This document shows, piece after piece, positions 5,966 to 61,627 of a stretch of DNA of 64,000 nt. A program made the position numbers and the translations under genes. The notes under the pieces were generated by a model. It ran no database searches and was not told the DNA's origin. It saw only the letters and a list, made by a program, of their open reading frames with translations. The first letter of the stretch is position 1. The number at the start of each line of letters is the position of its first letter. The stretch is from a virus: positions 1-64,000 of the IMG/VR virus record IMGVR_UViG_3300022932_000017. One strand, given 5' to 3'.

Positions 5966-6595
5966 TTAAATTAAACTTTCTAATTTTTGTCCTTTTTCTC
6001 TTATTTTTCTATGAAATGTTCTATATGACATACTGCCATTTTCACCAATACATTCATCAAACCATTTGTGTAATGATTGAGTTTTACCATTATAAGTTAG
6101 ATATACATTTGTAGTCATGTTATTCATCTGCTCCTTTGCATACGACCACCTGCAATTTGAAGGTTCATAGTCTCCGTTAACATCTATTCGATCTATGGAT
6201 GTTAAATTGTCGGGTCGTCTCCCCATATCTTTAAGAAAATTATCATAATTATCTAACCACCTGCTGCACACTTTTATTCCTCTCGCTCCATATCGATAAT
6301 ATTTATTACTATTTACATTATAACATCTATTTTTCATTGCAACCCAAGCCCTAAATTCTATAGTCTTGCAATCCCCATGTTTTGTTATAGATTTAAGTAA
6401 AGCATCTGCACGAGTACATCCGCAACTAAATGTATTTTTAATACCGCTCGCCTGTACCTCTATTGTATTCCCACACTCACATAAACAATTCCAATATGAT
6501 ACTTTTCTTTTTGAAACACTTCTAATTCTAGTCGGCGCTTTACTTATAACCGTCAGCTTCCCTGATACTAACCCTATCCTATTAATTTCTCTCAT
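5966..6595 (-). CDS. HNH-type homing endonuclease (paralogue 1)
   Basis: N-terminal module GKLTVI with a Cys pair (CLCECG) and CGC, a probable zinc site, then the HNH-like core SIDRIDVNGDYEPSNCRW, and a C-terminal helical region resembling the DNA-binding repeats of phage HNH proteins. Very similar in order and motifs to the product of 8077-8775. It lies between a 21-codon remnant of another gene and the endolysin, so it looks like a mobile insertion into the lysis operon. Confidence 0.82.
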   Translation of the reverse strand: MREINRIGLVSGKLTVISKAPTRIRSVSKRKVSYWNCLCECGNTIEVQASGIKNTFSCGCTRADALLKSITKHGDCKTIEFRAWVAMKNRCYNVNSNKYYRYGARGIKVCSRWLDNYDNFLKDMGRRPDNLTSIDRIDVNGDYEPSNCRWSYAKEQMNNMTTNVYLTYNGKTQSLHKWFDECIGENGSMSYRTFHRKIREKGQKLESLI

Positions 6596-8076: not shown

Positions 8077-8775
8077 TTATAAACAAAATCTTTTATACAC
8101 ATCATCCATTGTGGCACCATCTCTCCTAATCATCCTATACAACTTACTGTAATCGCACCCTATTTTTACCGCCCACTGTTTTATACTCAATTTAAAACCT
8201 TTATATTCAATAATTACTGATTGTCTTTTGTTGTTGGTCTGTAACTCGTCATTAGCCCATCTAACATTCCCGGGCTCGTAATTACCATCCACATTTATTC
8301 TATCTATAGAGTTCATGTTTTCAGGTCTCCGTCCTATGTAATCTAAAAATTTAGTATAATCATCCTCCCATTCTTTAAATACCTTTATGCCTCTGCCTCC
8401 ATAAGATTCGTATTTACAATGATTTTTTCTATTACATCTAGCTTTTATAGAACACCACGTCCTATACTCTATACTTTTTGAATCATTATGAGTTCTATGG
8501 GAACCTAATAGTCGTATACAACCACAACTTTTTTGTTTCCCTATTCGTTGTGTAGGTATCTCTACGGTTTTACCACAGTCACATTCGCATAACCAATATA
8601 TTTTTTTCTCTTTGCACTTATCCTTGTCTAAGAATCCTATTTGGCTTATGACTGTTAATTTATTAAATTTCATGCCAATCCTATTATTATTAGGCACCAA
8701 ACCTTTGTTTACTCTAATGTATTTTCCTCGTTCTATCATAGTGTAAATATAGATTATTTTTATCTGTTCTGACAT
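8077..8775 (-). CDS. HNH-type homing endonuclease (paralogue 2)
   Basis: Same architecture as the protein of 5966-6595: NKLTVI, then CECDCG and CGC (zinc site), then RTWCSIKARC, GGRGIKV and the HNH-like core SIDRINVDGNYEPGNVRW, ending in a helical DNA-binding region. A second possible start is Met13 (8739), closer to the conserved domain. It lies alone between a terminator and the small Pro/Lys-rich gene, as expected of a mobile insertion. Confidence 0.82.
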   Translation of the reverse strand: MSEQIKIIYIYTMIERGKYIRVNKGLVPNNNRIGMKFNKLTVISQIGFLDKDKCKEKKIYWLCECDCGKTVEIPTQRIGKQKSCGCIRLLGSHRTHNDSKSIEYRTWCSIKARCNRKNHCKYESYGGRGIKVFKEWEDDYTKFLDYIGRRPENMNSIDRINVDGNYEPGNVRWANDELQTNNKRQSVIIEYKGFKLSIKQWAVKIGCDYSKLYRMIRRDGATMDDVYKRFCL

Positions 8776-15361: not shown

Positions 15362-18300
15362 TCAGTCTTTCTCTTGAAGCCCTTTTCTAGTTTCCTCTAT
15401 TTTCTGTTTGGCTTCTTTAATCTTTTCCTTCCTTTCTGCATCACTAAGTGGTTTATCACTTTCAGCATCGGGAGTAAGACCTAAGTAGTTTACAAACCCA
15501 TCCCTGTAGAAACTGTTCCAAAAGCTTTTAGTAGAATAGTCAGGAGAGATCTGCGGTTGTCCTGTAACGCCTCTATAAATATTTTGAACCTGTCTACCGA
15601 ATCTATAAGGTATAATAGGTAAAGAGGTTTTACTTCCTAATACATCTCCGGCATATCCTCCTGCTTTCTTTAAATCTCCTTCTGTAGCTGCTTCAATACT
15701 TTTCACCACCTTAGCCCCATCATCAAATGCTGCTACTTTCTGGTTTAGAATCTGTTGCATGAATTTACCCATCTTCTTGTCTTCTAAAGCAAGTAAGAAA
15801 CTTAAAGCAGGAGGTGAAATTACATTGAAGTACTTCTTAGCCCATTCGTTCTTTTTAAGCCAACCTGCGAGGTCTTTATCCTTTCCAGATGATATTGTCG
15901 CACCCGCAGCTAGTAAAGAGACTGTAGCCCCTATAAATACTCTTCCAGCTGTACTCTTAGCTTTAGCTTCACTCATTAAAGCATACTCCATGTCCTTAAT
16001 TCCTTTTTCAGTAGTCAAATCAAGCTTTCTTCTCTTTACAAAGTTCTCTAAAGGACTCCAAGCATCAACTCCTGCTTTTTGAAGCGTAAGTGTAACCCAA
16101 TTACTAGCACCACCGACAAAAGGATTTAGAATGTTCTTTGATAAGATTGAAGTGAACGTAAGCATTGCAGCCTCATTCCACCTTTTCTCTTTAATGGCAT
16201 CTTTCAATTTACCTTCATTGTACGAGTTTAACAATCCTACAGTCCTAGAAGCAAAGTTATTCGCCTCATGCCCCATACCTAGACCTGCAACCGTATATCC
16301 TGCCCTGTAAGAAGCTTCAATCTGATCTAAGGTTAACTTCTCTCCTACAACCAAAGCCTCCTTTACAATGTCCATAGCAAGCCTGTTCGTAAACTCTTTG
16401 TTCTCCGGCAGAGTCTTTTTACCTGACAGCCTGTTTACCTTTTCAATAATCTCGTTAGCCGTTACAAGTGCATCACTAAACTTCTGTCCTGTAAGATTCT
16501 CCGATACATACTGCACCGCTTCATCCTGCCCCATACGCTTAGGGTTGTTCTTGTCTGTAAGCACCTTTATAAGGTTTCTAGTGAAGTACTTTTCAGTTAG
16601 GTTAGCTTTATTCAAACCATCCATGCCCTCTAAATAGATACGTCCTAAGATGCCTGATACAACAGCATGATATTTTCTGCTTGTCGAAACATTGTTGATG
16701 TAGTTCTCTGTAGCACTTTTCACCAAGAACGGATTTGATATGTCTCCATAGTCTAGTCCGGCATTGTAGATAGCATCCTTTAACACATTTCTTCCGGCAT
16801 CCCTTCGTTGTTTCTCTAATGCCTTTGTATCGTTCTTTTCAAATGCAAACGTTAGTTTGTTAAACGTCCTTTCAATATATCCACTAAGCGTGTTATCTCC
16901 AAGCTGTTTTACTGTGGTTAAAATAGCACGTTGAGCCATACTCAAATACTCTTGAGTGATTTTAGCTGCTTTAAAAGCACCATTACTCTCATTCCAAGCT
17001 ACCTTACTCAATAACTGCTCTATCTGGTGGTTAATTTGATTTACTGCACTATTTAGCCCAAACTCGTTAATCACCCTACCATCGCTTCTTGACTGATACA
17101 ACTCTGATAAACTCTTAGCAAGTACTTTAGCTTGAAAGAATGCCTCCTGACCAATACCATTAAGTCCAATAGCATTATTCATCAGGTAATCATACGTATC
17201 ACTGTTCTTCTCAAACAAACCGTAGTTATACAATTCTGCTAATCTCTTTGCTGTAGTCTTAGTGTTTGTCTTAGGCTTCTCTGTATTGCGTGTTTCTAGC
17301 TCTTTTAAGCCCTTTTCTATTACAGAGGCACGTAAGTCATTGTATTCCTTTTCAAAGCTGTCCTGTAGCCTGTCAATCTCTACATCAGAATAGCCTTTAT
17401 CCTTTAAGACTTTAGCTACATTTTCCTTCATCCGGTCAATACTACCTTCTTCTCCGGCTAGTTTCTTCCAATCTAAAGTTTGTGTTTTCTCTTTACGCTC
17501 CACCACATTGCCATTGGCATCAGTCTCTTTACGTGTAACTGTAATCTCTCTGCCATAGCCCGACTCAATCAAGGCTTCTTTCACGAATATTTTAGGCGTA
17601 GGGTCTAATTGCTCAAGAACTTCTAATGCAGCTTTCCTTTCTCCTTTTAACCTATTGATTTCAGGACTCTCTATTGGGTCTTTCTTCGCTTCACGTTCCG
17701 CTTTCTCCCCTTTAGCAATCTGATCGTTTAAACGTTCCAAGTCATTCTGCAATTTCTTTACTGCCGTAGCCTTCATACGCTCGTCTACAATCGCTTTACT
17801 CTCCGAAGTAAGGTATTTCATCGCCTCACGTTTATAAGCGGATTCTTCGGCTTGTAATGACTGTAATTCAGGATCAGTTAATCTGCTGGTTGCTTTGAGT
17901 TCAACTTTCTTATCTGCTATCTGCTGTTTAAGGTCTTCAATGCGCTTTCTGATGTTCTCTTTAGCATCAGCTAACTTTTCAGCATCACTCTTAACTTTAC
18001 CTCGCTTAGTGCCGGATTCAGTATCAATGTTCTCTTCTTTGAAACCATCAAGCATATCCTTTCTAAAATCGTCTTCCTTAGCCCATTTCTTTTGAGTCTC
18101 CTTGATTTTATTTATACCAAGCTCAATAGCATCAGCAATGTTTACTCCGGCCTTTATAGCGGCTTTAATGGTAGTTATCCCTGCATCAATAATAGCAACC
18201 GGAACACCTATACTAGCATCGTAAGTTTTACTTCTAAGTTTCTTCTGAATCTTGTCTAGTGCCGCAATAGCTTTGTCTGCCGCTTCCCTACGCTTAGTAG

Positions 18301-21300
18301 GTAGTTTCTCGTAAAGACTGTTTACTTCCTTCTCTACTCCTTTAGCAATAGCATTTTCAATATCAGGACTCAACACATCTACAGCATCAGTTTCAATTGA
18401 TTGTGCTTCCTTATTAATCGCATCAGGACTAGCTTCAATGCTTTTTTCAATAGTAGCTTTCTCTTGCCTTTGAGCGGAACTAAAAAACTCCTTGGTAATT
18501 TGACCCATATCATAAGCCGCTCGCGCAGCCTGTCTGAATCTACCATAACCAATAGCAATAGCAGCAGACCTTTGAAACTTAGTAGATATATCCCTTACAT
18601 ACTTTAATTGCTTGTTTACAGCTACTTCATTCTCTGGTTCTGCTAATATCCTTCTCTCAAGCTCATTCTCTAGGGATACAGTAATTAAACTTCGCTTATC
18701 TACAGGAAGCTTATTCTCTTCAACATACTCCATAAGTTTAGTGGCATATTCGTCACCAAACTCTTTTTTAGCATTTTGAACAATATCATCCCCATGCTGA
18801 AAATCAATAAGGCTGTCTTTCCGCTTGTACTCTTTCTCCGAAGCATCTAAAGTCCTTCCTGTCTCACGCTCTACGTTGTTTAAAGTATTACGGATTTCAT
18901 CAGTCTCTAGGTTCTTATTAACCAACTCAACAAACTTGTTGCTTACTTTTCCTTTGGCGGGTTCTGCTTGCTCTGTTTTACTTCCTGTATTTTCTTTTGC
19001 ATTTGTTCCTCCGTCATTTCCGGTTGGTTGTATAGTTTCCGCAATAGGTTCAGCTTGTTGTTCGATTGCTCTTCTTTCATGTTCGATAAAATCATTTGTT
19101 GTTAATTCTTCGTTTTTAAATTCATTTTCAAATTGTGTAGTCTCTTCCGTTGTTAAATTCTCTGCTTTAATCTTAGAGGCGCTATCTGCCAATACATCAT
19201 CAAACCTAGTTTTAAGTTCATCAAATTGTTTGGTAGTAATCTCTCCCTTACTCTTAGCCTCCGTAAGTCTTTTTAATGATGCCTCTGCTTTAAGCGTTTT
19301 ATTAGCTACTTGTTTTAAGGCTTTAAGGTCATCCTCCGCTTTGTCTAAGACTTCTTTAGTTCTTTCCGGTGATACACTCTCTTGAGCCACATTCTCTTGT
19401 GCAGGTACAGGTTGTTCAACTTCATTTGTGCCTTGTTTTAATTTTTGGTCATTTTCTAAATTAACAGGATTCCTTATTTCAGTTTCTTTAGGTTTATATT
19501 CCGTTACTAATATATCTCTTGATCTTCCACCATCAAATGCACCAACAATACCTTCTGACTCCATCTGATCCATTATCTCTTTCGCCCTCTCGTAGCTTAT
19601 ATTCAATTTTTTACTTAAAACAGCTATAGAACTATCTTTAGATTCCACAACTGTTTTTGCTGCTTCATCAAATAATGGGTCTAGTGTTCTAGGCGTCTCT
19701 ACAGCAGATGAAGGCTTATCCTGCACAACTTCATTTTCTTTTTCAAAATCATAAACTTTAACATTAATACTAGTTTTACCGCTCTGTATGTCATTAGCTA
19801 TCCTATGATGCCCATCTAACACATAATATTTATCACCTTCTTTTAATAAAGCAACATCTTCTGTAGGATTATTTTGGTTTTTAGTTCCTCCTAATTTATC
19901 AGCTTGTAGCGATTCTTGAGTTGGCACTATATCATTAATATCAACTATCTGCTTCGATTCTTCATAACCTGAATTATCGCCCTCTTTTGACTTACTCCGT
20001 TGTTCTTTAATAAGTCTATTTGCTTTTAAAACCTTTTCACTAGTTGCTTGGCTTATTTTATTTTTAAAAATATTTTCAGAAGGTATTTTATTATCAACCT
20101 GTTTCTCTCTTACTGTAGTGTTACCGCCTACTTCTGTATTAATAACCTCTTGTGGAACTTCTGGCTTGCTTCTTTCAGTCTGTTCAAGATTGTATCTTTC
20201 CTCTGTAATTTCAACAGGTTTCTCTTTACCGATCTGTTTAGTGTAGGTTCCTTTCTCTTCATCAAAGCTATACTTGGTTTTAAGACCTGTAGCAAGCTCT
20301 CTAAGCTTATCATTAGACTGATCGATCTTATTCTCTAAAGCAATCTCTTCGGGTAGTTTAATCTCTCCTAATGCAGGGTCGGTAGGAGTCTTCGTAGATT
20401 TAACATTATCCAAAGCTTCCTGCATCTCATTACGCCCTGTAATCAAATCCACTCCTTCATCAAATTGTTTAGGGGTAAATTGTTCCGGTAACTTAGACAC
20501 AGCATCAGCAATAACCATAGCTTGCTTTTGAGTGTTTGCTATCTCTTCTGGTTTCCACCCTTGCTTAGCGCCTAACACACCAACATCTTCAATTACCTTG
20601 GCGACATTTTCAGGACTCCTGTCAGCTTTAACAGCATCAATAACCATATTCTTATACGGAGACTTGCTAAACATCATCCCTACATCTTGCCTCATGCCAA
20701 GACCCGCAAAGATTGGCGCATCTTCCGTAAGTATCTTTCCAATCGTATCACTCATTTCTTGAGGACTTTGCGCCTGAAAGGCTTCCGACTCATTTACATC
20801 ATTAGCTTTTTTCTTTAACTCATTATCCACATACGCTAGTGCCGTTAAATCAAGTGAGGTATTACGATAAGCCTTGGCGCCTTTATTTAAGAACTCTGGA
20901 ATCTTCTTAGCAATACTCACACTTTGCTGTTTCATGGCATTAGCGATACTCTCTGCTGTAATAGCCTCTCCTGAATCAACCAAACCCTTCATAGCATTAA
21001 CAGTAGCTTGTCCGGCTAAGTCGTCTCTAACCGCAGCAGGAAGCTTATTAAATAATACATGTGAGTTAAGCGCTTTCATCAACGTGTAATCAGTAATCAT
21101 TTTGCCAACTCTATACAGGTCATCAGCACCATTCTTAAACTCTACACCATTCTTTTTAGCCTCACGAATCTCTTTATCTGCTGTTCCCGCTCCATTCATA
21201 GCGAAACTCATTCCCCCTGTAGCCTCTGCGCTAAGCATAGCAGGAACAAACTCTGCAAGTGAACCTACAGCCCTATCTACAGGAGTGAAGCCCCTAAAAT

Positions 21301-21883
21301 TATCCTCAAGTCCCATAGATGTTTTTTCTTGAGCTTTATCAAAAAATTCATTGTTTATCTTTTCTTCTTCGGGAGTATAATCTTCACCACCTAATACTTT
21401 TCTTCTTAGAAGGTCTGCCGCAGACAATACGCCTTCTCCAAGATTTACAGCACCTCTAGCAAGTCCCCTTCCAATAATCTTAGTGATTCCCTCCATTCCG
21501 GTCTGTACACCGCCCCAATAAGTATCCCCGTATTTCTTTTTATAGGATTCTAACTTATCGTTAATGACCTTTTCTTCATCTACCGAAGTATCAGGATTTT
21601 CTATGCGCTGTTGAGCAGTTAATTTAGTAGGATCTACCCTATAGTTAGCAGCAGTCTGTTCTTGAACTGTTATAGGTTTGTATGCTCCTAAAGCAGTCAA
21701 GTCTAGTTTTACTTTAGGAGTCTTTACAGGTGTTTGTCTTAGTTCTTTTGGTTGAACTGAAAATGATTCGTCTTGCAGGTTATTAGCCGCCTGTAATATA
21801 TTAGTACTTTGGAAAGGCTTTGAGCCACTTCCAGATGTTTGAACACCACTCTTTGAAACGGCTGAACCCCCCCCCAGCCCCAT
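15362..21883 (-). CDS. Giant polyvalent-type virion protein, ParB-like and FtsK-gamma-like, 2173 aa
   Basis: A very long, mostly helical protein. Residues about 640-710 contain a ParB/Srx-like fold with the hallmark VLDGHHRIAND. Residues about 745-805 resemble the FtsK gamma winged helix (IAVLSKKLNISYERAKEIMDQ, SEGIVG). Long charged coiled-coil regions follow, and a Gly/Ala-rich, weakly hydrophobic stretch lies near 1990-2010. This mix matches polyvalent proteins, described as large proteins delivered with phage or plasmid DNA to protect or process it. No RNA-polymerase DxDGD motif was found. The frame apparently begins too late: an N-terminal extension in another frame (21801-22019) joins it if one G is dropped from the G9 tract. 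Confidence 0.75.
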   Translation of the reverse strand: MGLGGGSAVSKSGVQTSGSGSKPFQSTNILQAANNLQDESFSVQPKELRQTPVKTPKVKLDLTALGAYKPITVQEQTAANYRVDPTKLTAQQRIENPDTSVDEEKVINDKLESYKKKYGDTYWGGVQTGMEGITKIIGRGLARGAVNLGEGVLSAADLLRRKVLGGEDYTPEEEKINNEFFDKAQEKTSMGLEDNFRGFTPVDRAVGSLAEFVPAMLSAEATGGMSFAMNGAGTADKEIREAKKNGVEFKNGADDLYRVGKMITDYTLMKALNSHVLFNKLPAAVRDDLAGQATVNAMKGLVDSGEAITAESIANAMKQQSVSIAKKIPEFLNKGAKAYRNTSLDLTALAYVDNELKKKANDVNESEAFQAQSPQEMSDTIGKILTEDAPIFAGLGMRQDVGMMFSKSPYKNMVIDAVKADRSPENVAKVIEDVGVLGAKQGWKPEEIANTQKQAMVIADAVSKLPEQFTPKQFDEGVDLITGRNEMQEALDNVKSTKTPTDPALGEIKLPEEIALENKIDQSNDKLRELATGLKTKYSFDEEKGTYTKQIGKEKPVEITEERYNLEQTERSKPEVPQEVINTEVGGNTTVREKQVDNKIPSENIFKNKISQATSEKVLKANRLIKEQRSKSKEGDNSGYEESKQIVDINDIVPTQESLQADKLGGTKNQNNPTEDVALLKEGDKYYVLDGHHRIANDIQSGKTSINVKVYDFEKENEVVQDKPSSAVETPRTLDPLFDEAAKTVVESKDSSIAVLSKKLNISYERAKEIMDQMESEGIVGAFDGGRSRDILVTEYKPKETEIRNPVNLENDQKLKQGTNEVEQPVPAQENVAQESVSPERTKEVLDKAEDDLKALKQVANKTLKAEASLKRLTEAKSKGEITTKQFDELKTRFDDVLADSASKIKAENLTTEETTQFENEFKNEELTTNDFIEHERRAIEQQAEPIAETIQPTGNDGGTNAKENTGSKTEQAEPAKGKVSNKFVELVNKNLETDEIRNTLNNVERETGRTLDASEKEYKRKDSLIDFQHGDDIVQNAKKEFGDEYATKLMEYVEENKLPVDKRSLITVSLENELERRILAEPENEVAVNKQLKYVRDISTKFQRSAAIAIGYGRFRQAARAAYDMGQITKEFFSSAQRQEKATIEKSIEASPDAINKEAQSIETDAVDVLSPDIENAIAKGVEKEVNSLYEKLPTKRREAADKAIAALDKIQKKLRSKTYDASIGVPVAIIDAGITTIKAAIKAGVNIADAIELGINKIKETQKKWAKEDDFRKDMLDGFKEENIDTESGTKRGKVKSDAEKLADAKENIRKRIEDLKQQIADKKVELKATSRLTDPELQSLQAEESAYKREAMKYLTSESKAIVDERMKATAVKKLQNDLERLNDQIAKGEKAEREAKKDPIESPEINRLKGERKAALEVLEQLDPTPKIFVKEALIESGYGREITVTRKETDANGNVVERKEKTQTLDWKKLAGEEGSIDRMKENVAKVLKDKGYSDVEIDRLQDSFEKEYNDLRASVIEKGLKELETRNTEKPKTNTKTTAKRLAELYNYGLFEKNSDTYDYLMNNAIGLNGIGQEAFFQAKVLAKSLSELYQSRSDGRVINEFGLNSAVNQINHQIEQLLSKVAWNESNGAFKAAKITQEYLSMAQRAILTTVKQLGDNTLSGYIERTFNKLTFAFEKNDTKALEKQRRDAGRNVLKDAIYNAGLDYGDISNPFLVKSATENYINNVSTSRKYHAVVSGILGRIYLEGMDGLNKANLTEKYFTRNLIKVLTDKNNPKRMGQDEAVQYVSENLTGQKFSDALVTANEIIEKVNRLSGKKTLPENKEFTNRLAMDIVKEALVVGEKLTLDQIEASYRAGYTVAGLGMGHEANNFASRTVGLLNSYNEGKLKDAIKEKRWNEAAMLTFTSILSKNILNPFVGGASNWVTLTLQKAGVDAWSPLENFVKRRKLDLTTEKGIKDMEYALMSEAKAKSTAGRVFIGATVSLLAAGATISSGKDKDLAGWLKKNEWAKKYFNVISPPALSFLLALEDKKMGKFMQQILNQKVAAFDDGAKVVKSIEAATEGDLKKAGGYAGDVLGSKTSLPIIPYRFGRQVQNIYRGVTGQPQISPDYSTKSFWNSFYRDGFVNYLGLTPDAESDKPLSDAERKEKIKEAKQKIEETRKGLQEKD

Positions 21884-34755: not shown

Positions 34756-37245
34756 TTATGCCACCATTTGAGGCTGTTCAGGAGCTTCTTCTTGCATCGG
34801 CTGACCCATCGCCTCACCTTGCGGTAATTGTCCTTCCTGTGTAGCCATTTGCTGTTGTTCCATCTGTTGTTGTTCGGCTTGCTGATCTTCCTGTTCCTGC
34901 CTTATTTGTTCCATTAAAATTTGCTTGTTGGAAATGTCGATCAATCCCACGCCTTCAAAAATAAATCCGGGCAAATCTTTCATTGAACTACCTTCTTTAG
35001 AAAGTATTGATTTCATTAGCTCAACTTTTAGTATAGAGGTATACTTAACAAGTTCGTTTTCTTTCAATGCCTCTGTTTCTTCTACAACACCTTGTGATTT
35101 AAGTTGCGCCTTCAATACTTCTAGCTCTTTGTCTTGAGTTCCTTTTTCTTGTGCCGCAGCAACAGCAGCTTGTGTATTCTCTTGTGAGGCTCGTGAGGCT
35201 TGTTCCTGCGCTTCTTTAAGACGTTTCTTCATCCTTGATGATAGCATATAGCTTGCATATTTAAGATTGTTCTTAGCAAGCAACCTTACGTCAATAGCAT
35301 CTTCCAAAGTAATCTCTTTCTGTGATAATGCCACCTGAATGTTTTGCTCTAAGTATTGAGCTTCCTTGTCATCTATTACCGCCTGTATCTTAACATCAAA
35401 GTTGCACTTCTCAAAATCATCCGTAGCCTCTAACCTGATATATTCAATTCTTTCAGAACCTAATGCCATTCTGTACCCATCGTAATATCTTTCTCCTTTC
35501 TTCTTATGAACGAGTATGTCCCATAACCTCTGCCCTGCAATCTTAGCAGTTCTTTCGTCTATATCAAGGAAAGCGTCATAAATGTAATTTGAAGCGCTCT
35601 CACCGATTTGTTTTGCGTCCTGTAATGTTTTATTCCCTACAGCTTGATTGGTAATGTTACCTGCCGCTAGGTTATTGTCCCCAATGATCTTTTGAAGTTT
35701 ATCGTATTCAGCATTCCATACCCCCATCAACTGTTCTAATTTAGCAGAGAAAGGAACGTTTGCCGGAGTAATAGGAGGTTGATTGTCCCTAGAGTTAATT
35801 CCTTCATCAGAAACTCTCTTGTAATACTGAATACCCGTTTGTTTGTAGATTTTGTAAAGTTCAAATGGACTTACACTCTCCATTCCCTCTCCCAAAGTAA
35901 TATCACTCATTTGAGAAATATCTACCATGTATCCATCCGGTGCGGCAGCAGCAATGATTTTCTGTTGTTGCAGTTGAACCAATTGCATCATCTTAATAGA
36001 TGGAATCATAGTTTCAATAAGCGGAGTATTTACCATCTTATTGTTCCCATACATGTGAGTGACATACGGAAGAGTTACCTCTAAAAGATTTTTGTCATTC
36101 TTAACTTGGTTCTTTGCTAATCCCCACTCTAAAACAAATTGGCTTTTAGTCAACATAACCCCGACATATTCTACTTCGTATGGTGGAGACTGAATATTTG
36201 GTTTTTCAGGGTTTAACTTTTCTTTTCTGTCTAAAACCTCCTTGCCGAACCTATCTGTGTTAACCTGATATTTTAAGTTGTTTACCGCTTTAAAGGATAG
36301 TTGTATTACCTCAACACTAAACCCATCGTAAGGTCTGTCAATAGCCTGATTGTATTCAGGTGTCCATCCCCAACCAAAGTTAGTATCGTTGCCGTTAAGA
36401 CCCTTATTTGATATTGCCAGTTCAAATAGCTTTTCTTCACCACCAAGTCTAGTAACTGCTTTAGGGTACTTCATCCTTATCTCTGATATTTTCATCAGAT
36501 TCACCCCCCCCTTGTAAGTAGCGTCTCTAAAGTCATCCCACTCACTGTAAGAAGATACAATATTCTCCGGCTTAGTTACTCCAATTTTAATCTTGCCGTT
36601 ACCATCTAGGTAAGTATATGTTTGGGCGATACCTGCGGTAATCAAATCATATAGAATGCGTTTCTTAATGATCTTATCCCAATTGTTATCGTAAAATATT
36701 AAGTCAATGCCCTGTTCTAAAATAACCTCTTCACGCTCCTTATAGTTGAATCCGAAGTGAATGTCAATCTCCCGTTCGTCTTTAGGATCATCATCACTAA
36801 ATTCTTCCAGTTCTAATCCAGACTCCTGTTGTATAGCTTGAATCTTTTCTTTATTCTTCATCTTGAACAAAGCATCCATCTTCGCTTTATCTTTTTTGCT
36901 TTGCGTAAAGGGGTCAATAGCATTTGCCTGAATCTTCTCTATACGCTGCATGTAACGGTCTATAAGACGGTTTACAAAGGGAATAGCAATGGGCGTAGGG
37001 GAATAGTCTAGGTTTATCATAGACATATCTCCATCAAGGTCTAATATATCTTTATACTCTTGCATGGGTTGTTTACCCATAGCAAATAACCTGTTGTAAT
37101 CATATCGGTTCCTTCGTCCTGATGCACCTTCCGTAGTACCGTTCGTCCACTTCTCATAAGCAGAGATTAACAGTCTTTTTCCAAATTCTAAACTATCCTT
37201 TGTAGTGTCCGGTGCTATAGGTGAAAGGTTTACTGCATCATTCAT
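34756..37245 (-). CDS. Portal protein, 829 aa
   Basis: Large helical protein directly after terminase, with a portal-like core and a long C-terminal Gln/Glu-rich coiled coil (QQAEQQQMEQQQ) consistent with a barrel extension. The size resembles crAss-like portals. A TACATTTG box lies 16 bases upstream, so it may also have its own promoter. It contains a G8 tract that stays in frame (coding GGV). Confidence 0.78.
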   Translation of the reverse strand: MNDAVNLSPIAPDTTKDSLEFGKRLLISAYEKWTNGTTEGASGRRNRYDYNRLFAMGKQPMQEYKDILDLDGDMSMINLDYSPTPIAIPFVNRLIDRYMQRIEKIQANAIDPFTQSKKDKAKMDALFKMKNKEKIQAIQQESGLELEEFSDDDPKDEREIDIHFGFNYKEREEVILEQGIDLIFYDNNWDKIIKKRILYDLITAGIAQTYTYLDGNGKIKIGVTKPENIVSSYSEWDDFRDATYKGGVNLMKISEIRMKYPKAVTRLGGEEKLFELAISNKGLNGNDTNFGWGWTPEYNQAIDRPYDGFSVEVIQLSFKAVNNLKYQVNTDRFGKEVLDRKEKLNPEKPNIQSPPYEVEYVGVMLTKSQFVLEWGLAKNQVKNDKNLLEVTLPYVTHMYGNNKMVNTPLIETMIPSIKMMQLVQLQQQKIIAAAAPDGYMVDISQMSDITLGEGMESVSPFELYKIYKQTGIQYYKRVSDEGINSRDNQPPITPANVPFSAKLEQLMGVWNAEYDKLQKIIGDNNLAAGNITNQAVGNKTLQDAKQIGESASNYIYDAFLDIDERTAKIAGQRLWDILVHKKKGERYYDGYRMALGSERIEYIRLEATDDFEKCNFDVKIQAVIDDKEAQYLEQNIQVALSQKEITLEDAIDVRLLAKNNLKYASYMLSSRMKKRLKEAQEQASRASQENTQAAVAAAQEKGTQDKELEVLKAQLKSQGVVEETEALKENELVKYTSILKVELMKSILSKEGSSMKDLPGFIFEGVGLIDISNKQILMEQIRQEQEDQQAEQQQMEQQQMATQEGQLPQGEAMGQPMQEEAPEQPQMVA

Positions 37246-37272: not shown

Positions 37273-39456
37273 TTATACGTTATATTTCTTTGATTTACGG
37301 ATTTTCATGAACGTTACGACCTTGTTTACTGTTGTTTGTTTGCCTGTAGCTTCTTTCAATCCCATCAGCGCATATCCCCACGCCATACAAGCATCATAGT
37401 CTCCACGATCGTTAATATCAAAGTCCCTCATATCTTTTAGAAGTCTAAGAAACTTGATTTTCTTCATGTTGTTTATGGAGTATTCAATCATTTCCGTTAA
37501 ATGCTGCTCTCTGGCTTCTTTATTCTGTGGAGGTACACCATACGTCTCTCTCTTATCAGAAAGTCTTGTAGTCATCAGATAACCAAACTTGTGATCGTGG
37601 TTTAATGGAGAGGCTAAACGTCTTGTGGGTGAAGTAGCATAATCTTCCCAATCTGTAGGGGCACGCTCTGCGAGCATTTTTATGCCGTAGTATTCTAATC
37701 CCCAAAATACCTGATCGTGAAACGCTTCTTTTGTTTTAGGTCTTCCAATAAACATTGCTATAGGCATTCCTGATTTTTCAGGGTTTAACGCATCGTATCT
37801 CTTATGAACGATCAAACAAGCATCAGATCCTTTATCTACAGCCGCCTTAGCATTAGCAAATGTATCTAGTCCGGCAGCACCATATATTGTGTTTTCAGGG
37901 CATTTAATGTTTCCCCTATACGTAGATCGATTAGAACCTTCATCTAACAGTTCAATGATATACCACATTCCTTTAGGGTCATCTACAGGTATCTTCTTTC
38001 CATCATGCCCATTTTTAAAGCTCATGCGCCTACCGAACTCTTGCTTCCCACCCATACGGACTAATTCATCTTCAATGTACTGGATCTGTTCGTTTAAAGC
38101 ATCTAAATCAAAATTACACCTGTTGTTAGCACCCTTAAATACTTCTTTCCATTCAAAAGGGTATTTACGAACCTGCTCTGCATATTGTTCAGGATCATTA
38201 GCTTTCATGTTCCTAGCTTCCTGTAAGAATGCCTTTGCTCCAATTGTAGGGTCAAGACAAGCCAAGTCCCCTGTAGAAGGGTCAATTACCGTAGCCATGA
38301 ATGCGGATTGTTCAGGAGTAGGAGTTTCCACTACAGAATTACCGTATTTATCAATATATCCTAATAAACCTCTATACCCTGCAATAAAGAATCTTTTTAA
38401 GCACGTCTCTGTTCTACCGAACCTGTCTTTCTTTCCGTCAATATGATTTGAACCATCCCATATCTTTCTAAAGTTCTCTCCCCCTTTATCTCCTTTGTTT
38501 ACCGTACTGAACACCGACACGTGACCTCCAATAGAGGAACCTACAACAAGCGTATCACTGATTTTATTTAAAAGGGTTTGTACGTTGACCTTCTCAAACT
38601 TACCCGCTTCATCAATGATAATCCTTCTTGCACGTCTACCATCATAAGCATTCTCCGCAGTATCTAGGTAATTAATCCTATTGTTCAACCCTTTATCAGA
38701 GGTAACCATTTTGTTATTGCTGCTGATCTTCTTTTGAGGCTTTGCGATATGGATTTCAGATTCAGTTACCTTGTTTAGTTCCGGCATAAAGAACGGAGGT
38801 AAGTTTTCCAACCCATTCTTTATCATCAAGTACATCTCATAAGCATCCGTACCCGTCTTAGATACAATACCTTGTAAAGTATTGTTTTCTATTATGCCTA
38901 TCTGTAAGTGAATAGATGATGCCATAGAGGACAATCCTAAACGTCTACCCTTTATCCCGCAATCCCCTAATGTTCCCCGATCTTTTTCACATAATTCATA
39001 GAACCTGTAGTACTCTAGCGAAGTATCCTTATAAGATGGGAATATCTGTTCAATTAATAAAACAAACCATTGGTGGAAAAATAAACAGTATTTATTAAAG
39101 TAGGTTGGCACTCCGTTTATCATTATCCATTCTCCGGTATGCAAACGTTCAATAGCAGACTCGTACCAAGTCATCTGTTCTTCCCACTTCTTGTACTCTC
39201 TTTTCTCTGCGGCATTTAAAGTATTCTGTCTCTTTTCGTAATTAGGGATAGGGTTAGTAAACCATAAACGTCCTAATAAAGGGTCAGTATTCCATTCCCA
39301 TCTTTCGTATTCAGTATCCCGAACCCATACCTGATCTTCTATGTTCTCTTCCCAATTACGAATAGACCTTAATGGAGGGATAGGAGGATCTGTATAAATT
39401 AAACCCTGAACTTCATGTTCTACAACCGCTCCTACATTAATCTTACTTTGCGCCAT
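37273..39456 (-). CDS. terL: Terminase large subunit, 727 aa
   Basis: ATP-driven DNA packaging motor with a nuclease domain. Walker A-like GRRLGLSS lies near residue 168, Walker B IIIDEAGKFE near 280, and the RNase H-type nuclease acids are suggested by GLDTF (about 531), DWEDY and DYDACMAW (about 689). The length is typical of crAss-like terminases. It overlaps the upstream small gene by 14 bases and is followed by the portal. Confidence 0.92.
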   Translation of the reverse strand: MAQSKINVGAVVEHEVQGLIYTDPPIPPLRSIRNWEENIEDQVWVRDTEYERWEWNTDPLLGRLWFTNPIPNYEKRQNTLNAAEKREYKKWEEQMTWYESAIERLHTGEWIMINGVPTYFNKYCLFFHQWFVLLIEQIFPSYKDTSLEYYRFYELCEKDRGTLGDCGIKGRRLGLSSMASSIHLQIGIIENNTLQGIVSKTGTDAYEMYLMIKNGLENLPPFFMPELNKVTESEIHIAKPQKKISSNNKMVTSDKGLNNRINYLDTAENAYDGRRARRIIIDEAGKFEKVNVQTLLNKISDTLVVGSSIGGHVSVFSTVNKGDKGGENFRKIWDGSNHIDGKKDRFGRTETCLKRFFIAGYRGLLGYIDKYGNSVVETPTPEQSAFMATVIDPSTGDLACLDPTIGAKAFLQEARNMKANDPEQYAEQVRKYPFEWKEVFKGANNRCNFDLDALNEQIQYIEDELVRMGGKQEFGRRMSFKNGHDGKKIPVDDPKGMWYIIELLDEGSNRSTYRGNIKCPENTIYGAAGLDTFANAKAAVDKGSDACLIVHKRYDALNPEKSGMPIAMFIGRPKTKEAFHDQVFWGLEYYGIKMLAERAPTDWEDYATSPTRRLASPLNHDHKFGYLMTTRLSDKRETYGVPPQNKEAREQHLTEMIEYSINNMKKIKFLRLLKDMRDFDINDRGDYDACMAWGYALMGLKEATGKQTTVNKVVTFMKIRKSKKYNV

Positions 39457-39877
39457 TCAATTTTAGTTTAATCTTTTCTGTTGCTTCTTCAAAGACATTC
39501 CTATGCTCCCCTTTAAACTCTGGTTCATCTTCTTCCTCTTTTTTAGGCTTAGCATCTTCCTTAGTTAAAGTAGTGACCATTTCCTGCTTAGCGAAGTCTG
39601 ACAATGCTTTGAAGTTTTTCATATTCCCAATCAAAGATAAGAACCGTTCATAGATTTTATTCTTCTTGGAGCCTAGCATCAACAGTTGATTGTCTAATTC
39701 ATCATCAGCAAGCGTGCTACTAGCGATTCTAACTACATCATCAGCTATTACCCCTGCTACATCATTACATGCCTGTACAAGCCTCTGTATATTATCCCCG
39801 TTGAACTTCTCTAGCTCGACAATATAATCATCAACCTCTTTTTTTCCGCTCCTTATATACGACTTTATGGTTTTCAT
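39443..39877 (-). CDS. Possible small terminase subunit, 144 aa
   Basis: Helical, with an acidic Lys/Glu tail (KPKKEEEDEPEF). Directly upstream of terL and overlapping it by 14 bases. Position and size suit a small terminase subunit, but no helix-turn-helix is evident. The next gene upstream is also a candidate. Confidence 0.5.
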   Translation of the reverse strand: MKTIKSYIRSGKKEVDDYIVELEKFNGDNIQRLVQACNDVAGVIADDVVRIASSTLADDELDNQLLMLGSKKNKIYERFLSLIGNMKNFKALSDFAKQEMVTTLTKEDAKPKKEEEDEPEFKGEHRNVFEEATEKIKLKLNGAK

Positions 39878-40616
39878 CTATTTTAGGTATTCTAATCTTA
39901 GTTTTTGCTTTCTTGGAGTCGTCAATAACTAATCTTGGTTTAACATTATGGTTTTTAAAGGTTTTATCAAATCCCTCAAACATTGTTGATATTTTAGCTT
40001 TGAACTCTTTCTGGAACAACTCAAATAACTTCTGTCCCTGTAGAGTAGCGGAGTAAACAAACCCAAATCCTGCACCTCCTTTGTACTTAGCGGCTAACCC
40101 TCTTGCAACAACCCTATTTAGGGACGTTCTAAGCAACGATAAACTGTATGGCAGGAATAACACTAGGTCTTTAACATTAATCCACTCATGGCAGCATAAC
40201 ACCACTAGAATTGCAAATTCTCTTTCAGCAAGATCATTGTCTTTTGTAAACTTCTGAATAACCGGAAAGGCAATAACCCCATCCACATAGTTTGACTTCT
40301 CTAATAAGTCCCTTTTTATTTTAAGGTAGTATACATCTGTAGCACGCTCTGAAATCTTTCTTTGGTTTATAGCAGACTTCTTTAGGTACTTCTTGAATCG
40401 GTCTGTCTGAATCCTTCCTACAGTTTTTTTGTTTATGGTTTTACGGTCATCAACCTTGGCCTTCATCTTTACAATCTGCCGCCTTAAATCAGCTATGATC
40501 TTCCGGTAACGGATAGGAGCGACTCTAGGGTCATTCTGCTCAACCAAAGTCTGAAATTCCCTAGCGGTAATGTCTCCTAGTAATTCGTCTTTGTATAATG
40601 ATTGATTTTCTGTCAT
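39831..40616 (-). CDS. Winged-helix DNA-binding protein, 261 aa
   Basis: Residues about 125-205 read like a MarR-type winged helix (DLAEREFAILVVLCCHEW, SLLRTSLNRVVARGL, then AGFGFVYSATLQG as the wing). A very basic N-terminal helix (KKTVGRIQTDRFKKYLKK) and basic C-terminus flank it. It overlaps the following gene by 47 bases. It may be the DNA-recognition part of packaging or a late regulator. Confidence 0.55.
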   Translation of the reverse strand: MTENQSLYKDELLGDITAREFQTLVEQNDPRVAPIRYRKIIADLRRQIVKMKAKVDDRKTINKKTVGRIQTDRFKKYLKKSAINQRKISERATDVYYLKIKRDLLEKSNYVDGVIAFPVIQKFTKDNDLAEREFAILVVLCCHEWINVKDLVLFLPYSLSLLRTSLNRVVARGLAAKYKGGAGFGFVYSATLQGQKLFELFQKEFKAKISTMFEGFDKTFKNHNVKPRLVIDDSKKAKTKIRIPKIDENHKVVYKERKKRG

Positions 40617-41272
40617 GACTTAACCCCTATAATCTCCCTGTCTTTAAGTACAACGTATTCTTTGCCTTCGTATTGAATGACGTAATTGTTCTTGTCCATT
40701 GGCAATACGGTATCACCCACTTTAACATGCCTGTACTCCCTCGCACATTTATCAGGTACATGAGTAATTACAATAGCAAGGTCGTTCTTTATCTTTTCAT
40801 CAGACGAGGTAAGGAAGATGCCACTTTCTGTCTTAGGTGCATCTTCTAATTCCCATGTTCCAAGGAATACTCCATCATTCATTATGAATTTATCTCCTTC
40901 TATTTTGAATAGTACATGTTGAGCACCTACCAATGAAAACTCTTCTCCGGCAAACTCTACTTTGTCTTCCCATTCTTTAGCCATGTAATGCAGGAATACC
41001 ACTTCTCCTTTTGCGTATCCTTTCTCAATATACTTCTCGGAGCCGTCAGGATTAAAACCATCTCTTAGCTTACATATCGCATTGCGTTTAACTGTGGCTA
41101 CCTGTGGGTGTGTAAGGAGTTTGTTTACATTACTCTCAAATGTTCTTGCTCCCTGCTCGTCTTCACTCATTTCCCACATATCAGGACGTATAAGGTCTAC
41201 TCCGGCTAAATTAAATACCTTGTTGTGGGATACATCAAATTCTACGAATAAATTGTTGTTTATGGTCACCAT
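40613..41272 (-). CDS. Tandem GroES-like co-chaperonin, 219 aa
   Basis: The C-terminal half (about 125-219) reads like GroES: SGIFLTSSDEKIKND (matching SAGGIVLTG), a VITHVPD strand, VKVGDTVLP, then YEGKEYVVLKDREIIGV (matching the IDNEEYLIL...DILAI end). The N-terminal half repeats this plan: NNLFVEFDVSHNK, AGVDLIRP, ATVKR, KGEVVFLHYM, FAGEEFSLV, AQHVLFKIEG. Phage GroES-like proteins (T4 gp31 type) reprogram host GroEL for folding a capsid protein. The gene starts the terminase-to-head region. Double-GroES proteins are otherwise best known from plant chloroplasts. Confidence 0.65.
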   Translation of the reverse strand: MVTINNNLFVEFDVSHNKVFNLAGVDLIRPDMWEMSEDEQGARTFESNVNKLLTHPQVATVKRNAICKLRDGFNPDGSEKYIEKGYAKGEVVFLHYMAKEWEDKVEFAGEEFSLVGAQHVLFKIEGDKFIMNDGVFLGTWELEDAPKTESGIFLTSSDEKIKNDLAIVITHVPDKCAREYRHVKVGDTVLPMDKNNYVIQYEGKEYVVLKDREIIGVKS

Positions 41273-41916: not shown

Positions 41917-42306
41917 CTATTCCGAAGCAGGGGTAACAAGCTTTCCTGCGGCACTTAATGCAGCCATTGCCTGTTCATTAGTTTCGTACTTAGGCTGACC
42001 AGATTGAGGATCAGCAACAAGTGGTTTCTGTAAAATAGATGCTGTGTGTGCATTTACAGACAAACTACCATCTTCAAGTTTATCTTTTACTTCTTGATCG
42101 GCTTCAATGACCTCTTTTGCTTTATCATCATCTGCCATTTCAACTAGAGGTGCGTCAACTGAACTGGATTCTGCTTTAGCCGACTCTAGTGTTTCATCAA
42201 CGGTTTCATCTACAGGTGTAGTTTCCGGAGTTTCTTTTACTGTTTCTTTAGTTTCAGGAGCTACAGTTTTAGCTTCTTCTTTGGTTGTTTCTTTTTTTGC
42301 TGTCAT
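41917..42306 (-). CDS. Acidic, Thr/Glu-rich protein, 129 aa
   Basis: Low-complexity first half (KETTKEEAKTVAPETKET) then ADDDKAKEVIEADQEV. Probably largely disordered. It has its own -7 box and a terminator, so it is a monocistronic unit. A high-copy structural or accessory protein is conceivable; unknown. Confidence 0.6.
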   Translation of the reverse strand: MTAKKETTKEEAKTVAPETKETVKETPETTPVDETVDETLESAKAESSSVDAPLVEMADDDKAKEVIEADQEVKDKLEDGSLSVNAHTASILQKPLVADPQSGQPKYETNEQAMAALSAAGKLVTPASE

Positions 42307-44051: not shown

Positions 44052-45635
44052 TTAAAATAACTGTGTTTGAATTTTAAATGGTTTTATCTTTTTATCTGCA
44101 ATCTTACAGTAGTCACTACTCATTTCTGAACCTACATAGTTTCTTCCTGTTCTTAATGCCATGATAGCGGTATTACCTGAACCCATAAAAGGGTCGTAAA
44201 TTAATCCTCCTTTCGGACAACCTGCGATAATTGGTTTCTTTATGAGTTCATCGTTGTAAGCAGCATAATGGGCATCCGTAGATGGTTTAGTTGGTATATC
44301 AAAAAAATCAAATTCTCTATTTAACTCTTGAGGAAATCTAAGCCTCTTTCTGTCAAGCGATCTGGTATACCCACTATAAGCATAATCATAAAAAATAGCA
44401 GCATCATTATCAACATATGATAATCTATAAGTTCCTTTTATTTTTTTTGGTGTTTGATTGTACATTCCCGTTTTATATAATCTATCAGAAACCCAAATCA
44501 ATAGTTTTTCTTTTCCAAGAAGTTCTAACCAATAACGCTCTGACCCTTTATAACCCGAATATACACCAACAGAACCGTCACCATCAAATAGTCCTCTAAT
44601 AAAAGCATATTCAAAATCATGTGATATATTAGGAACTTCCTTTGATTTATATCCCAATGACTTTAGATCCGAAACCAATTTTTGGCTGCCCAAAGTTAAT
44701 CTTACTGAACTTGTCTTATTCCTTTGCCTCTCATATATAAGATGATTATCCATTAAATCCTCTTGAAAAGATAACAAATGCTCTTTATCCTTAGTATGAA
44801 TTTCTAATTCTAGTGAGTTCTTATTAAGATACGCATCTGCCCATATAAACCCTAACCAATAAGCCTTATCATCGCTGTCTATAGTTTCAAAATAATTTTC
44901 TCTAAAAAAATATTTTCTGTTTGGATAGCTTTTTCCAGTATCCCAAAAATCAGATACAGAGCCAGGGTTCTTTCCCTTATCTTCATCACCCCAAACCCTA
45001 AAACCCTCTGAAAATTGTGATGAACCAGAACCTCTGCCATATATTTCACTTGCTTTATTCCGAATAGAAACATTGTTTTTAAGTTTATCCCTTATACCAT
45101 CCAAATCAAAATAATATTTATTGGATTTAGTCATTAAGAAAAAATACTCATGCTTCTTACTGAACCTATCTGTTACACTCTCTGGCATAGCATTCCTTTT
45201 AGCCCACACAATATCATTCCTAACCATTAAACCTCTGTCAATACATCCTATAGCGAATCTATGAGGCAATAATAACAGTGATTTGTGAATGCTTTTACTT
45301 TGCTGAACTTTAGCGCCTGAACCTGCGTGTTTTGATTCCTTTGATGAATAATCAACTGAACTTGCCATACCTCCTGATTTTGTACCATAAGTGTCTCCAA
45401 GGTTTATCCACATTGTTCCATTAGATTTTAATTTTGGTATTAATGCTTCTATCATAGACCAAAGATGCTCTAGGTATAATTCAAATGTTGGCTCTAATCC
45501 CCATTGTCCATCGTAGCCATAATCTCTAAGCTGCCAATATGGAGGCGAAGTAATTACACAATCAATAGAATCATCGTCAAACCTTTTTATGGTTTCTAAA
45601 CATGGTTCTTGGTATATTTTATTTAATTCTATCAT
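44052..45635 (-). CDS. DNA methyltransferase interrupted by a LAGLIDADG domain, 527 aa
   Basis: An amino-methyltransferase (N4-cytosine or N6-adenine) of the beta class: SPPY catalytic motif at residues 30-33 (VITSPPYWQLRDYG), target-region residues 60-232 and motif I DPFMGSGNTAIM near 485-500. Between SDFWD and IPTKPS, residues about 233-446, lies a homing endonuclease with two LAGLIDADG motifs (LGFIWADAYL and FIRGLFDGDGSV). Removing it restores SDFWD-IPTKPSTDAHY, the usual sequence of this family. Intein splice residues are absent, so the insert may stay in the protein. The host enzyme may protect phage DNA from restriction. Confidence 0.85.
   Translation of the reverse strand: MIELNKIYQEPCLETIKRFDDDSIDCVITSPPYWQLRDYGYDGQWGLEPTFELYLEHLWSMIEALIPKLKSNGTMWINLGDTYGTKSGGMASSVDYSSKESKHAGSGAKVQQSKSIHKSLLLLPHRFAIGCIDRGLMVRNDIVWAKRNAMPESVTDRFSKKHEYFFLMTKSNKYYFDLDGIRDKLKNNVSIRNKASEIYGRGSGSSQFSEGFRVWGDEDKGKNPGSVSDFWDTGKSYPNRKYFFRENYFETIDSDDKAYWLGFIWADAYLNKNSLELEIHTKDKEHLLSFQEDLMDNHLIYERQRNKTSSVRLTLGSQKLVSDLKSLGYKSKEVPNISHDFEYAFIRGLFDGDGSVGVYSGYKGSERYWLELLGKEKLLIWVSDRLYKTGMYNQTPKKIKGTYRLSYVDNDAAIFYDYAYSGYTRSLDRKRLRFPQELNREFDFFDIPTKPSTDAHYAAYNDELIKKPIIAGCPKGGLIYDPFMGSGNTAIMALRTGRNYVGSEMSSDYCKIADKKIKPFKIQTQLF
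44298..44939 (-). mobile_element. LAGLIDADG homing-endonuclease insertion within the methyltransferase
   Basis: About 642 bases, in frame, coding a domain like free-standing phage homing enzymes (ENYFETIDSDDKAYWLGFI...). The insertion is flanked on the coding strand by near-identical GATTTTTGGGATA (start) and GATTTTTTTGATA (end), 11 of 13 identical, suggesting a duplicated target. No intein splice motif and too little extra sequence for a group I intron. Confidence 0.78.
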
Positions 45636-61009: not shown

Positions 61010-61627
61010 ATGAGAACAAGAAGAAGATTTCAAGAAGATAGCCCAGAAGAAGTCAAGGCTGCTTTTATTAGCAAGTTCAACTACAATCCAATAAGCGGAG
61101 AGATAACAAATACTTTAAGCGGTAGATTTTATTTGAAATTGAACAAAAAGAAGTATAGACAGGAATTATCTGTTGGACTTAACAAAGTCGAACACTGCGT
61201 TAACTATCATAGATTATGTTGGTTCTTACATTACAATCAAATTGTACCTGATGACATGCAAATAGACCACATAAATAACGTTAAGGATGATAACAGGATA
61301 GTCAATCTACGTATTTGCTCGAATCAAGATAATGCAAAGAAGCAACTACTAAGAATGGACAATAAAACCGGATACAAAGGTGTATCATATTGCTATGATG
61401 TAAATCAACAAGGCAAAATTTATTACTATTATACTGCCGCTATCGGACTAGATAAAAAACCAACTAAAATTGGAAGATTTAAAGATCCTATAGAAGCAGC
61501 AAAGTTTTACGATTCAGCAGCTAGATATTATTTCGAAACATTCTCTAAGTGCAACTTTGAAGAAGAGTTTATACCGCCAATGTCAGTTGAGGAACTAAGA
61601 ATCCTAAAGAAACAAAAGAAATTATAA
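61010..61627 (+). CDS. HNH-AP2 homing endonuclease, 205 aa
   Basis: N-terminal NUMOD-like strand pattern, then HNH core HRLCWFLHYNQIVPDD and IDHINNVKDDNRIVNLR, then an AP2 DNA-binding domain (TGYKGVSYCYD, YYYYTAAIGLDKKPTKIGRF, PIEAAKFYDSAARYYFE). This is a standard free-standing HNH endonuclease of phages. Unrelated to the paralogous pair on the other arm. Confidence 0.88.
   Translation: MRTRRRFQEDSPEEVKAAFISKFNYNPISGEITNTLSGRFYLKLNKKKYRQELSVGLNKVEHCVNYHRLCWFLHYNQIVPDDMQIDHINNVKDDNRIVNLRICSNQDNAKKQLLRMDNKTGYKGVSYCYDVNQQGKIYYYYTAAIGLDKKPTKIGRFKDPIEAAKFYDSAARYYFETFSKCNFEEEFIPPMSVEELRILKKQKKL

Follow-up and report, generated by a model that had tools for sequence, protein, structure and literature searches.

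Bacteriophage T4 gp31 is an established case of a phage-encoded lid that works together with the GroEL of the host in capsid folding. Lids made of joined GroES units have otherwise been reported for the plastids of plants and of malaria parasites. The Cpn20 proteins of chloroplasts and apicoplasts consist of two GroES-like modules arranged head to tail, with a mobile loop in both of them. For Arabidopsis, three cpn20 chains are reported to combine with one cpn10 into a hetero-oligomer that is functional (PMC3542282), and a plastid co-chaperonin complex on ClpP (Cpn11/20/23, Chlamydomonas) has been described as well (PMC8889267). Furthermore, engineered GroES concatamers of six to eight modules work with GroEL (reviewed in PMC5780408). 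T4 gp31 is a single-domain, heptameric protein (PMC6318259). Phage co-chaperonins and tandem Cpn20 are therefore known kinds of protein; for the tandem or triple architecture in phages, no paper was found in the literature searched (which holds few subscription papers), and this architecture appears to be the undescribed part.

The gene studied here lies in a window of 64,000 bases, i.e., the whole stretch of DNA that was analysed, which corresponds to the first part of a virus record of 73,820 bases. It occupies positions 40613-41272 on the minus strand, starts with ATG and encodes a protein of 219 amino acids, which was assigned as a putative tandem GroES-like co-chaperonin on the basis of Pfam and PHROG matches, AlphaFold/Foldseek comparison and homologues. 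Its TGA stop codon and the ATG of the following gene overlap within the letters ATGA. This following gene (39831-40616) codes for 261 aa; behind it, likewise on the minus strand, come a 144-aa gene (39443-39877) directly ahead of the terminase large subunit (TerL) gene, TerL itself (37273-39456; PHROG 6681, E 9.7e-71) and the portal protein gene (34756-37245; PHROG 6547, E 8.5e-72); genes similar in size to the 261-aa and 144-aa genes are found at the same places in relatives. The tandem gene is thus located three genes upstream of TerL, in line with the preliminary description, which had placed it next to the head genes. Neither GroEL nor a second GroES module was found in a search across the whole 73.8-kb record. 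A weak match at 1821-2021 was considered as a second GroES and rejected, as it corresponds to a 66-aa open reading frame without a Cpn10 match in Pfam.

Some other genes of the window can be mentioned here. A DNA methylase (44052-45635, minus strand; Pfam N6_N4_Mtase, E 8e-40, residues 24-514) has its domain split by an inserted stretch, in frame and ~270 aa long, that matches LAGLIDADG_3 (E 2.6e-6); inspection by eye revealed no obvious intein splice-junction motif in it. In a 2173-aa protein (15362-21883, minus strand), residues 735-794 correspond to an FtsK gamma domain (E 2.3e-18); this protein also matches PHROG 13700 (FtsK/SpoIIIE-like). Look-alikes of HNH/AP2-type homing endonucleases were recognized by eye at 5966-6595 and 8077-8775 (both minus strand) and at 61010-61627 (plus strand).

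The C-terminal module (residues 127-219; 40616-40894, minus strand) is readily recognized. Residues 143-217 match Pfam PF00166 (Cpn10) with an E-value of 2.5e-9 and 37.5 bits (cut-off 21.1), the C half matches PHROG 3188 (co-chaperonin GroES, E 7.4e-10), among PDB sequences it comes closest to Thermus Cpn10 chains (E ~2e-4), and the C halves of the family align with GroES with an HHalign probability of 97.0%. The AlphaFold2 model of the complete protein, calculated from an alignment of 11 sequences, contains two barrels (pLDDT 76.7, pTM 0.70). In our reading of this model, both halves keep the order of GroES, i.e., strand, mobile loop, strand, dome, three strands, short turn and last strand. 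In comparison with single-domain GroES/Cpn10 (PF00166), which has one module per chain, the window protein has two, of which the C half scores above the Pfam cut-off and the N half is highly diverged, both being GroES-like by profile and by model.

Both modules have retained the mobile-loop motif by which GroES contacts GroEL. All 14 family members examined carry its G-hydrophobic-x-hydrophobic pattern where the loop is expected, in the N as well as in the C module (for a loop of 25 residues the background is ~0.11, and the 14 members are related and do not represent independent trials). In the window protein, the motif reads G24-V25-D26-L27 in the N module (41192-41203, minus strand) and G151-I152-F153-L154 in the C module (40811-40822, minus strand). 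The N-loop motif lies within the only segment of the model with pLDDT below 50 (residues 19-34), and pLDDT also dips near residues 151-160 in the C mobile loop. The numbering of the N-loop motif equals that of E. coli GroES (G24-I25-V26-L27). In the latter, I25D and L27D abolish GroEL binding, whereas V26D does not (PMC5575113), so the acidic middle residue of the N-loop VDL is compatible with GroEL binding.

We consider it probable (roughly 0.8) that the protein is a Cpn20-like tandem co-chaperonin of the phage that caps the host GroEL so that virion proteins can fold, judging from sequence, predicted structure and gene order. The comparison with T4 gp31 and RB49 CocO is a functional analogy only, in which the use of a phage lid on the host GroEL for capsid folding is assumed for our protein.

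Searches with the tandem protein itself gave no match in isolated phages (tblastn) or in a single-sequence scan of IMG/VR, and relatives were reached through TerL-based scans leading to related IMG/VR contigs, in some of which the copy is cut off by the contig end. In contigs whose TerL is at least ~41% identical, a relative of the tandem protein is found wherever the stretch upstream of TerL is present; in more distant contigs, the relative adjoins GroEL. The same arrangement is found in isolated flavobacterial phages, i.e., Flavobacterium phage elemoF (gp30), Cellulophaga phages phi13:2 (gp96) and phi38:1 (gp89) and Maribacter phage Panino, where proteins of 180-200 aa in the same position beside TerL are all annotated as 'co-chaperonin GroES'. 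Aligned with the window protein, these proteins show an identity of only ~12-23%, their annotation is silent on the tandem architecture, and several of these phages have their own GroES and GroEL. However, the forms of phi38:1, elemoF and their relatives can be aligned with the window family over both halves: a set comprising phi38:1, elemoF and one contig (L036) matches it with an HHalign probability of 98.0% (E 1.6e-13, 170 columns). Furthermore, phi38:1 gp89 matches PHROG 13932, and a protein of this type is located at TerL in the window as well, where the direct hmmscan match to PHROG 13932 covers only the C half (E 0.0044). In Tenacibaculum phage Gundel_1, TerL is present and no GroES is detectable, which means that the tandem gene is not universal. 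When bacterial and archaeal genomes were scanned, the tandem protein retrieved no relative and the phage single GroES retrieved two bacterial GroES genes only; neither scan led to a host. The preliminary description had suggested that a tandem form would be unusual in a phage. The form is undescribed in the papers searched, but within this group of phages it occurs commonly, with homologues already deposited as 'co-chaperonin GroES' or 'chaperonin cpn10'.

Two observations on the neighbourhood in relatives may be added. A gene for a protein of 129-131 aa lies upstream of the tandem gene both in the window (41917-42306, minus strand) and in contig L029 (4335-4730), where it is placed between a single GroES gene and the tandem gene; the two products share the C-terminal sequence LQKPLVADP.SG.P.YET. 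In contig L021 (5429-8470; also in L022 and L023), the TerL gene has ~1014 codons and contains an in-frame insert that starts with ECMSPDTKILCDG, ends with TLTMNC and looks like an intein.

Several relatives are longer (247-307 aa) and possess a third GroES-like module. It is N-terminal in L010 (Pfam Cpn10, E 4e-14), L011 and L021, and C-terminal in L017, L025, L026, L030, L032, L036, L038, L053 and L051; in the last of these it gives a strong Cpn10 match (E 1.3e-20), and seven C-terminal third modules taken as a set match GroES with 92.4%. Two free-standing GroES from other phages of the set share 34-38% identity with the N-terminal module of L010 (E ~1e-15). The three-module AlphaFold model of L010 is of low confidence (pLDDT 62) and was used as support only; its best matches are GroES and Cpn20, all with E-values of 0.001 or more. 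In L029, L031 and L037, single-domain GroES is encoded by a gene of its own close to the multi-module gene; in phi13:2, elemoF, phi38:1 and G004, the last of which has a three-module gene as well, such a gene lies elsewhere in the record. The phages phi38:1 and elemoF combine GroEL, a single GroES and the tandem gene; GroEL has been reported in phi38:1 relatives (PMC5332604), and that of phi38:1 has been detected by mass spectrometry (PMC13288928). Furthermore, three contigs have the multi-module gene next to a phage GroEL gene: L052 (with L042) in the order GroES-GroEL-tandem, L053 in the order GroES-triple-HNH-GroEL, and L051 with the tandem fused to GroES and lying beside GroEL. These three contigs (L051, L052 and L053; records G012, G013 and G015), with GroEL beside single, tandem, fused or triple GroES, form a natural set of lid-chamber pairings. 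Of all the evidence, this GroEL neighbourhood argues most strongly, in our view, for multi-module proteins that cooperate with Cpn60.

The position of the gene could also be explained if a GroES-fold protein had been recruited as a virion or packaging component, e.g., as a ring or plug near portal or terminase, and were no longer a co-chaperonin. Such a role would agree with the location in the packaging block beside TerL, with the retention of the gene there even where the phage has separate GroES and GroEL genes at another place, and with a module number that does not fit a heptamer. However, the mobile-loop motif, which would be needless in a purely structural protein, is kept in both modules, and in other contigs multi-module genes lie beside phage GroEL or are fused to canonical GroES. 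We consider this explanation unlikely. Still, phages equipped with GroES and GroEL retain the tandem gene, which may thus serve some further or other purpose.

In the Foldseek comparison of the model with PDB, the first rank was taken by a tandem Cpn20 chain (7ekq_R; E 3.5e-5, 153 columns), and ranks 2 to 30 were all GroES or Cpn10. The TM-scores to 7ekq_R were only 0.40/0.44, meaning that the two modules are not arranged identically. Among viral models, the top matches include a 200-aa 'Chaperonin cpn10' of Cellulophaga phage phi18:3. Cpn20, the best PDB fold match, is a eukaryotic plastid protein to which the window protein has no close sequence similarity (phmmer E 0.24), so that we speak of a Cpn20-like architecture and do not class the protein as a member of Cpn20. 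The phage family also differs from Cpn20 in the occurrence of three-module forms, and the phage tandem likely arose by a duplication independent of that of plastid Cpn20. As the chain 7ekq_R is a Cpn20 within a ClpP complex, one could think of a lid mimic with a use other than folding, which would inhibit the host GroEL or cap another ring such as ClpP. This is very unlikely in our opinion: the match reflects the fact that Cpn20 is the tandem co-chaperonin of the library rather than contacts with ClpP, and the genes of relatives are associated with GroEL.

The N-terminal module (residues 4-126; 40895-41263, minus strand) is far more diverged than the C-terminal one, and its assignment relies on the joint N-half profile and the strand order of the model. 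Compared to single-domain GroES, it has an extended mobile-loop region plus an insertion. The N half alone has no co-chaperonin match in Pfam or PHROG, it cannot be aligned directly with the C half (HHalign probability 0.8%), and a narrow N-half profile of the window family matches GroES with 43-74% and over a part of the domain only. A profile search of PDB with the N halves alone placed GroES chains, aligned over their full length, at ranks 2 and 3 with marginal E-values of 0.015-0.017, behind an unrelated enzyme (E 0.01). However, the N halves of the window family match those of the phi38:1/elemoF/L036 set with 98.1% (E 9e-14), and the joint N-half profile of this wider family matches GroES with 96.9% (E 1.4e-10, 87 columns) and a score of 57.0, compared to a maximum of 11.7 for 60 column-shuffled profiles. 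The likeness to GroES is thus above chance for both halves. A protein with a GroES module in the C half alone, whose N half would be a beta domain of another kind that might serve as client adaptor, would fit the failed and partial matches of the N half listed above, but is highly improbable given the lengthwise match of the wider profile with its large margin over the shuffles, the alignment of the phi38:1/L036 family across both halves, the strand order and loop position in the model, and the loop motif at GroES numbering. Taken together, Pfam Cpn10 for the C half, the joint profile for the N half, and the Cpn20 and GroES matches of the AlphaFold model bear out the two GroES-like halves proposed originally, and neither profiles nor model pointed to an unrelated fold or to a single GroES-like domain. 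As N-terminal modules of this kind escape Pfam, annotation either takes such genes for ordinary GroES or overlooks them.

For the tandem co-chaperonin that we favour, we suggest that the two GroES-fold modules of each chain, each with its mobile loop, would assemble into a lid for GroEL. This GroEL is taken to be that of the host because none was found in the 73.8-kb record of the phage. Under the lid, phage clients would be enclosed and folded, most likely capsid or other large virion proteins; we infer GroEL binding and lid function from the features described above, and the virion-protein clients are a guess from gene position. With two modules per chain, whole copies cannot total seven modules, and either a mixed ring with single-domain GroES or a ring of six or eight modules is needed. 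Three tandem copies and one single-domain GroES would make seven modules, the single-domain partner being supplied by the host in our case and by the phage itself in some relatives; alternatively, six or eight modules could come from the tandem protein alone. We infer that the mixed ring of three plus one is the most likely one: adjoining or fused single-domain GroES in relatives suggests a mixed ring, although it does not fix the stoichiometry. More tentatively, and with chances that we put clearly below even, chains of two or three modules together with one single GroES (3x2+1 or 2x3+1 = 7) might form an asymmetric lid on GroEL, in which distinct loops on each module would tune lid affinity or cavity shape to the phage clients.

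If this is true, laboratory-made concatenated GroES would have its natural counterpart in the three-module co-chaperonins. The phage family, in which two- and three-module proteins occur and GroEL is encoded by some members but not by others, provides natural material on lids with the wrong number of modules over a sevenfold chaperonin. It points to chaperonin-dependent virion assembly in these phages, for which culturable representatives exist among the phages of Cellulophaga and Flavobacterium.
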